Source: Oscillospiraceae bacterium (GTDB lineage Bacteria; Bacillota; Clostridia; Oscillospirales; Oscillospiraceae). Taken from it: 64,000 nt of DNA. The notes beneath the pieces are model-generated. The model saw only the letters and a program-made list of their open reading frames with translations. It was not told the DNA's origin and made no database searches. Shown piece by piece: positions 15,004-39,549 of the stretch; position 1 is the first letter of the stretch, and the number at the start of each line of letters is the position of its first letter. Where the stretch lies: assembly GCA_009787625.1 (NCBI GenBank), contig WQSX01000007.1, forward strand, positions 1-64,000. Reading direction: 5' to 3'. The translations under genes were made by a program, and so were the position numbers.

Positions 15004-15128
15004 AAAAACTCCCACCTTTCATTTTGCACTTTATACCATTATCTATACCATGTCAATATTTTTTATGCCTTTTGTCTGCGGCAAGCATGGGCAACAAGAC
15101 AAGGGAACCGCCCCCTGTCTTTGCTTCA

Positions 15129-15804: not shown

Positions 15805-15931
15805 ACTATTCACCAGGCTGGCAGATGATGGGCAGTTTGCCCTGGTTTTTCGGGAGAACAGCGGTGTAGATCCCGATGGCTCCCGAAAAATCAGGGTGAA
15901 TTGCCCATCATCTGCGAGAGTGATGAATAGT
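15805..15931 (+). promoter_or_regulatory. Large inverted repeat / structured leader upstream of LytTR regulator
   Basis: 52-nt arms (15805-15856 / 15880-15931), 44/52 Watson-Crick, 23-nt loop. Confidence 0.65.
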
Positions 15932-20551: not shown

Positions 20552-20696
20552 GCAGACAAAAGGTATAAAAAATATTAGCAACCCGACCGACATGAGAAAA
20601 ACCGGTATAAGAAATATGGCGTACTAGTAAACCCATATGCACTGGTGGCAAAGAGGCGGCTGAGTGGTGCTAATATTTTTTATACCTTTTGTCTGC
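20552..20696 (+). repeat. Hairpin element copy A (145 bp, perfect 29-bp terminal inverted repeats)
   Basis: gcagacaaaaggtataaaaaatattagca ... tgctaatattttttataccttttgtctgc. Confidence 0.9.
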
Positions 20697-28507: not shown

Positions 28508-28538
28508 AACAAGACAGGAACCGTCCTCCTGTCTTGTT
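28508..28538. repeat. REP-like palindrome (12-bp perfect stem)
   Basis: aacaagacagga-accgtcc-tcctgtcttgtt. Confidence 0.8.
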
Positions 28539-28552
28539 ACGTAAAACGCAAA

Positions 28553-28698
28553 GCAGGCAAAAGGTGTAAAAAATATTAACAACCCGACCGACATAAGAAA
28601 ACCAGTATAAAAAAAGCAATCGCATTAGTCAAATCCATGTGCACTGGTGGCAAAGAGGCGGCTGAGTGGTGTTAATATTTTTTACACCTTTTGCCTGC
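28553..28698 (+). repeat. Hairpin element copy B (146 bp, perfect 29-bp terminal inverted repeats)
   Basis: gcaggcaaaaggtgtaaaaaatattaaca ... tgttaatattttttacaccttttgcctgc; compensatory changes relative to copy A. Confidence 0.9.
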
Positions 28699-28761: not shown

Positions 28762-28998
28762 TTACTTTTTATCAGGTTTTTTCTTGATTTTTGATAAATC
28801 GAATGAGACTATTGGGGCGTCTAGGGCTTGGACGTTTGTGCTTCTTGTCGCCTCTAGGAGTTCTTCTCTGAAAACTTTGACGTCCCGCGGGGCATCTACG
28901 CCCAGTTTTATTTTGTCTCCATCTATGCCGAGCAGAGTGATGCGGATGTTATCGCCTATTACGATGGTTTCGTTGACCTTACGTGACAGAACTAGCAT
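28762..28998 (-). CDS. csrA: Carbon storage regulator CsrA
   Basis: [47 protein letters not shown]. Confidence 0.95.
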
Positions 28999-29458
28999 CG
29001 TCTTCACCCTCCTCCCTTGCAACTAACTTGCATATTTCTTGGAAGATAGGTACACGGACATTATACTCACTGCCGCTGAGCATTATCTGCTTTGCTTTTC
29101 CGCTGGAAGTGTTGATGATGATTGGGGCGGCGAGGTTCACCGTCATGCCTGAAATTTCGTCCGGAATGACCACGACACTCACGACAAATAAATCATCGGG
29201 TTTTGTGAGCTGCAGCCTTTTTACATCTGTCTCATCAATATCAAAAACATAGTCCGGAAGAACCGAAAATGTGTCAAGCACAGGCAAGCAAATCCCTGTC
29301 TCTTCCGTGGATTGCAACCAAACCAGTGGATAGCTCTCCTCAAATTGAAGCAATGCATATGTGTGATATTGTTCAAGGCCGGGAACGCCTTCTTCGAAGT
29401 CTAAGAACTTCGCCTCATCAACTTCGACATTCCCAAACCGCAGGGTATCAATTTGCAT
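28979..29458 (-). CDS. fliW: Flagellar assembly factor FliW
   Basis: [47 protein letters not shown]; overlaps csrA. Confidence 0.93.
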
Positions 29459-39503: not shown

Positions 39504-39549
39504 AATAAGTCAAGAAAAATCAAAATATTTTGATTTTTCTTGACTTATT
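39504..39549. repeat. 46-bp perfect AT-rich palindrome
   Basis: aataagtcaagaaaaatcaaaat|attttgatttttcttgacttatt. Confidence 0.85.

Follow-up and report, generated by a model that had tools for sequence, protein, structure and literature searches.

MITEs such as bcr1, NEMIS and ERIC are palindromic intergenic elements of ~100–170 bp, a description which also fits the hairpin family reported here, and classical MITEs possess constant termini. The present family is multi-copy, non-coding and bounded by terminal inverted repeats, yet differs from classical MITEs in that the outer arms are copy-specific in eight of its fifteen copies and that no clear target-site duplication was found, the 15 copies together presenting one 4-bp direct repeat. 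It also resembles REPINs of the REP/RAYT system (PMC3116915), these being short, dispersed, extragenic and non-autonomous palindromes with a single-strand hairpin, but comprises one long hairpin, the loop of which bears a conserved core, in place of two REPs, and is not accompanied by a RAYT-type Y1 transposase.

The closest known kind of element is TwoAYGGAY (RF01731; PMC2864571, PMC4333381), a catalogued candidate RNA for which CsrA binding has been hypothesized (PMC4333381). Both families possess a nearly perfect outer stem of 25–35 bp, the outer part of which is copy-specific and the inner part A/T-rich, and a conserved interior of ~60–85 nt; both occur in several copies per genome in the same bacterial genus, and both exhibit a strand bias of their wobble pairs. 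As in TwoAYGGAY, a conserved interior is closed by a long stem, whereas the two hairpins with AYGGAY loops that define TwoAYGGAY are not present, no such loops occurring in the alignment of 15 copies. The initial annotation had recognized no known RNA family, and the Rfam check was in agreement: no match at the gathering threshold was obtained in the window, TwoAYGGAY in particular was detected neither in the vicinity of copy A (E ≤ 10) nor in the genome as a whole (E ≤ 0.01), and a search with the family-1 model recovered no TwoAYGGAY copy. Because the defining loops are missing and no Rfam family matches, this is, as judged from its sequence, a new family and not a member of TwoAYGGAY, albeit one that is built like it, with a similar anatomy and a different core. 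Hammerhead, twister and other known ribozymes were considered and set aside as they lacked Rfam support.

The window, i.e., the whole stretch of 64,000 nucleotides that was analyzed, contains copy A (20552–20696), copy B (28553–28698) and a solo right arm, the last of which is probably a deletion remnant (Table 1). The perfect 29-bp arms described in the initial annotation were recovered in both copies exactly as claimed, as were the three positions at which the arms of A and B differ, each with the complementary change in the opposite arm, and the boxes acccgaccgacat and gcactggtggcaaagaggcggctgagtgg common to the two copies. Folding energies of −60.5 (copy A) and −57.2 kcal/mol (copy B) were obtained (z = −9.0 and −8.0, respectively), and none of 200 shuffles folded as well; the fold of the window copies is far beyond chance. 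The genes adjoining copy B (28762–29458) are of the csrA and fliW types, FliW being identified by Pfam, and are of relevance to the CsrA binding proposed for TwoAYGGAY.

Table 1. Positions of the hairpin copies and associated features in the window
Feature	Position	Strand	Remarks
Copy A left arm	20552..20580	+	29 bp, F1 type, GCAG terminus
Copy A left conserved box GACCGACATGAGAAA	20585..20599	+	Near-invariant in 15 copies
Copy A right conserved box GTGGCAAAGAGGCGGCTGA	20645..20663	+	Matched exactly 16 times genome-wide; no variants with 1–2 mismatches
Copy A right arm	20668..20696	+	Perfect complement of copy A left arm
Copy B left arm	28553..28581	+	29 bp
Copy B left conserved box GACCGACATAAGAAA	28586..28600	+	A at the variable site
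Copy B right conserved box GTGGCAAAGAGGCGGCTGA	28647..28665	+	Exact box match
Copy B right arm	28670..28698	+	csrA-like ORF ends ~60 bp beyond
Solo right arm	15055..15079	+	GGCAAGC 3' flank, as in copy A
csrA-like ORF	28762–29022	minus	Named by sequence recognition

The initial annotation had proposed a search for further copies in the host genome, and these were indeed found: the family is represented there by 15 distinct full-length loci, one truncated copy (L016, on contig C79) and one solo arm. The 16 exact matches of the right box correspond to 15 loci as contigs C45 and C52 share a 7.5-kb overlap of 100% identity, while the sole match with three mismatches sits in unrelated sequence. The flanks of the 15 loci are unrelated to each other. 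An assembly artefact is unlikely, since a single contig of 75 kb contains both window copies and other genomes display the pattern as well. Copies sit between tandem or convergent genes, usually at gene ends, and in no case between divergent genes, with mixed orientation relative to their neighbours. No family copy was detected by BLAST in the 18 congeners, by a box search in 400 genomes of the taxonomic family (one chance match only), by a covariance-model search with a weak prefilter in 250 other genomes of that family, or in viral contigs, plasmids and phages; in a 17-mer scan of genome contigs, none of the matches listed possessed arms or the left box. At two copy sites for which orthologous places could be compared, the element is missing from five congeners (G005, G006 and G014; G004 and G018).

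The element spans ~145 bases, in which arms of 29–39 bp enclose two near-invariant boxes, GACCGACATSAGAAA and GTGGCAAAGAGGCGGCTGA, with a mean identity of 98% in the boxes as compared to 70% in the middle of the interior; in the 15-copy alignment, copy B alone has an A at the variable site of the left box. The most divergent copy, located between what we take from sequence to be ParE- and ParC-like genes, has preserved the two boxes but hardly anything more of the interior. Copy L002 could be read as encoding a short peptide (ATGAGAAA...TGA), a reading that was rejected as frames and stops vary among copies. Watson-Crick pairs account for 464 of the 470 arm pairs (~99%), the remainder being four G.T and two A.A, with two additional G.T pairs further out in the arm of L002. 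Among the 15 copies, 19 of 24 counted arm pairs exhibit two-sided change and one-sided change is limited to two cells; the arm covariation score is 0.510, versus a shuffled mean of 0.160 and at most 0.149 for slid controls. The 6-bp inner helix of the initial annotation exists in copies A and B, but does not extend to the family as a whole and was rejected as a general feature, since it is broken in several copies, has 81% of its cells paired versus 97% in the arms, and displays two-sided change at none of its five counted pairs.

Three types of arms were distinguished. The F1 copies (the window copies, L002, L004, L005, L007 and L016) possess GCAG...CTGC ends at which pairing halts, and their flanks are asymmetric (left CAAA, right GRCAA), which suggests that interiors of this type have flipped little. 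Eight copies, assigned to F2 (L006, L008, L009, L011 and L012) and F3 (L010, L014 and L015), share no more than ~22 bp at the inner end of the arm, while their outer 8–17 bp are unrelated among copies and yet complementary inside each copy. For example, identity between F3 copies, counted from the core outward, is 100% at positions 1–19 and ~33%, i.e., the level of chance, from position 23 on, whereas Watson-Crick pairing within each copy remains at ~100% out to positions 30–35; the F2 profile is similar. The outer arms of L009 and L011 extend over the final codons of a host gene, and the opposite arm is in each case the inverse copy. As chance-level outer arms adjoin fully conserved inner arms and all of these are paired, stepwise mutation followed by selection is excluded and copying of arms is required; on the sequence evidence, one of the two outer arms must have been produced by inverted copying of the other. 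Base pairing had been proposed at the outset to be 'selected or actively copied', and the copy-specific outer arms, together with the two-sided changes, substantiate the copying part of this proposal.

We therefore favour, with modest confidence, the explanation that the family is a non-autonomous dispersed hairpin element, similar to MITEs or REPINs, which carries an asymmetric conserved loop core and is remodelled by template switching. Such switching is inferred because arm homogenization, arm extension and interior inversion are its known footprints: at inverted repeats it homogenizes the arms, inverts the spacer and lengthens the arms, as in one yeast gene in which the arms grew from 5 to 16 bp in a single event (PMC8604942), and a role in the creation and maintenance of RNA hairpins has been suggested for it (PMC8794818). 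Published cases concern RNA genes and short scattered inverted repeats, while here template switching would act on dispersed copies that share a conserved core. The nascent strand would fold back at the inverted repeat and copy the other arm, which would restore perfect arm complementarity; copying that ran past the arm into host DNA would generate a copy-specific outer arm, and the interior could be flipped between the arms. What is selected or recognized during spread would be one of the strands in its folded state, either RNA or single-stranded DNA. Profile searches of the genome, the assembly of which is 95% complete, returned no Y1 transposase (PF01797), with controls detected as expected, and no reverse transcriptase (PF00078); no autonomous partner was thus found within these two enzyme classes. 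This negative result counts against the explanation, as do the lack of a clear target-site duplication, the fact that no empty site was encountered in the same species, the flank asymmetry of the F1 copies, and the near-invariant core, the identity of which, when set against that of the interior middle, points to a function beyond passive spread.

Inversion of an interior was observed in TwoAYGGAY, between species, and not in the present family. TwoAYGGAY matches were found in seven of 19 genomes of the genus at E ≤ 0.01, two of them above the cut-off, and a long inverted-repeat scan of sampled stretches of six congeners revealed hairpins of the same anatomy in G015, G010 and G002. The G002 element was assigned to TwoAYGGAY with 44.4 bits (gathering score 43), and was not listed in a later whole-locus scan with fast filters. 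The TwoAYGGAY copies of G002 have mostly unrelated outer arms that are perfectly or almost perfectly paired around a conserved interior, and the present family apparently evolves in a like manner. Furthermore, loci L355 (G008) and L356 (G009) represent one orthologous TwoAYGGAY locus, with 86% identity over 2.9 kb and immediate flanks that are 77% and 87% identical, at which a 113-bp interior match of 100% identity occupies the same place in inverted orientation relative to the flanks; alternatively, this arrangement may have arisen from another, independent insertion at that site.

A multi-copy structured RNA, be it a small RNA or a 3'-UTR element like TwoAYGGAY, whose transcript is selected to fold and whose compensatory changes arise by ordinary mutation, appears rather unlikely, even though it would account for the near-invariant core and for an anatomy identical to that of a curated candidate RNA in congeners, to which the CsrA hypothesis (PMC4333381) also attaches. 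The wobbles are in its favour. With core orientation fixed, G.T exceeds A.C among arm mismatches by 6:0 in this family, by 39:4 among the G015 hairpins and by 9:1 for TwoAYGGAY, a direction that is consistent in all three and for which the pooled p is about 2e-11, a value that is too small as the copies are related and non-independent. Random single transitions in a palindrome are expected to yield equal numbers of G.T and A.C on a given strand. Because the mismatches are strand-biased, one strand appears, from these sequences, to be kept foldable, either as RNA or as single-stranded DNA, and the selection part of the initial proposal is thereby hinted at, such that copying and selection both seem to act on the arms. 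However, wobbles amount to just ~1% of arm pairs, the core offers no GGA loop to CsrA, orientation relative to neighbouring genes is mixed, no promoter-like site was found near copy A, and sequential mutation cannot yield outer arms of chance identity beside inner arms of 100% identity with both paired.

The copy-specific and symmetric outer arms would also be expected if the element had inserted precisely at the midpoint of perfect palindromes or cruciforms that were already present, the outer arms then being old host palindromes, yet we consider this improbable: zero-loop palindromes would be needed for all eight F2/F3 copies, two of them overlapping gene ends, whereas the genome is poor in hairpins whose arms reach 12 bp or more and whose loops do not exceed 14 (seven in 179 kb), and no such palindrome is present at the congener loci of two sites. 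A phase-variable inverton, in which a site-specific recombinase flips the interior and switches neighbouring genes, is very improbable despite the inverted repeats around an asymmetric interior and the inversion between species at the TwoAYGGAY locus, since the arms differ among copies and hence provide no common recombinase site, no promoter-like match was found, and copies lie mostly at gene ends and never between divergent genes.

Returning to the dispersed hairpin remodelled by template switching, we tentatively suggest a wider class that would include both the present family and TwoAYGGAY, in which a species- or lineage-specific core stays fixed, whereas the arms are rewritten again and again by template switching, which also draws host flanking sequence into them and flips the core, so that arm covariation would largely reflect mutational copying and not RNA selection. 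A functional RNA stem is ordinarily proved by compensatory changes, and here many such changes in the arms must come from DNA copying; Rfam TwoAYGGAY accordingly merits re-examination as a dispersed element with a possibly invertible interior. The present family offers a clean test set on which selection can be separated from templated copying, selection being marked by strand-biased tolerance of G-U.

The G015 hairpins constitute a family of ~145 bp (L286–L305, L172) with the core GCAGTCCTGGAACACAAATTT...AGACGTGACTGACG, 13 copies of which were measured in ~290 kb, and have no Rfam match. Long-arm hairpins with the box CACAARTTTTGCCGATAAT, which resembles part of the G015 core, were found in G010 (L336:11003–11144, L345:10296–10435 and L345:15362–15502). 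Kinship of the present core with the G010/G015 core (GGCAAA) was rejected, as the folded strands inferred from wobbles conflict and model R1 finds none of these hairpins.

A second and far larger hairpin family in the genome is characterized by the 23-nt loop CCATCGGGATCTACACCGCTGTT, found at 15857–15879 in the window and at 135 other places (136 loop matches, the 100 listed all being exact; loci L206–L235), and was not encountered within three mismatches in the 18 congeners. Its arms are variable, with the GCAG...CTGC ends that are also found in F1 copies, and one idea prompted by these shared ends is that a single mobilizer may serve both. Its mismatches (26 A.C versus 7 G.T in the CCATCGGGATCTACACCGCTGTT orientation) indicate that the opposite strand may be the folded one. 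In G005, locus L163, after a permease stop, carries arm sequence of this second family around a different 22-nt loop, CAAGGTAATCTTCGCCCCTATT, a comparison which suggests that loops may be species-specific and arms shared. Repeats of the AAGACAGGGGGACGGTTCTCCTGTC type occur at 28508–28538 in the window and in the flanks of copies A, B and L002, as well as in congeners G002 and G010. Finally, a perfect 46-bp palindrome with a spacer of 0 is located at 39504–39549 in the window.
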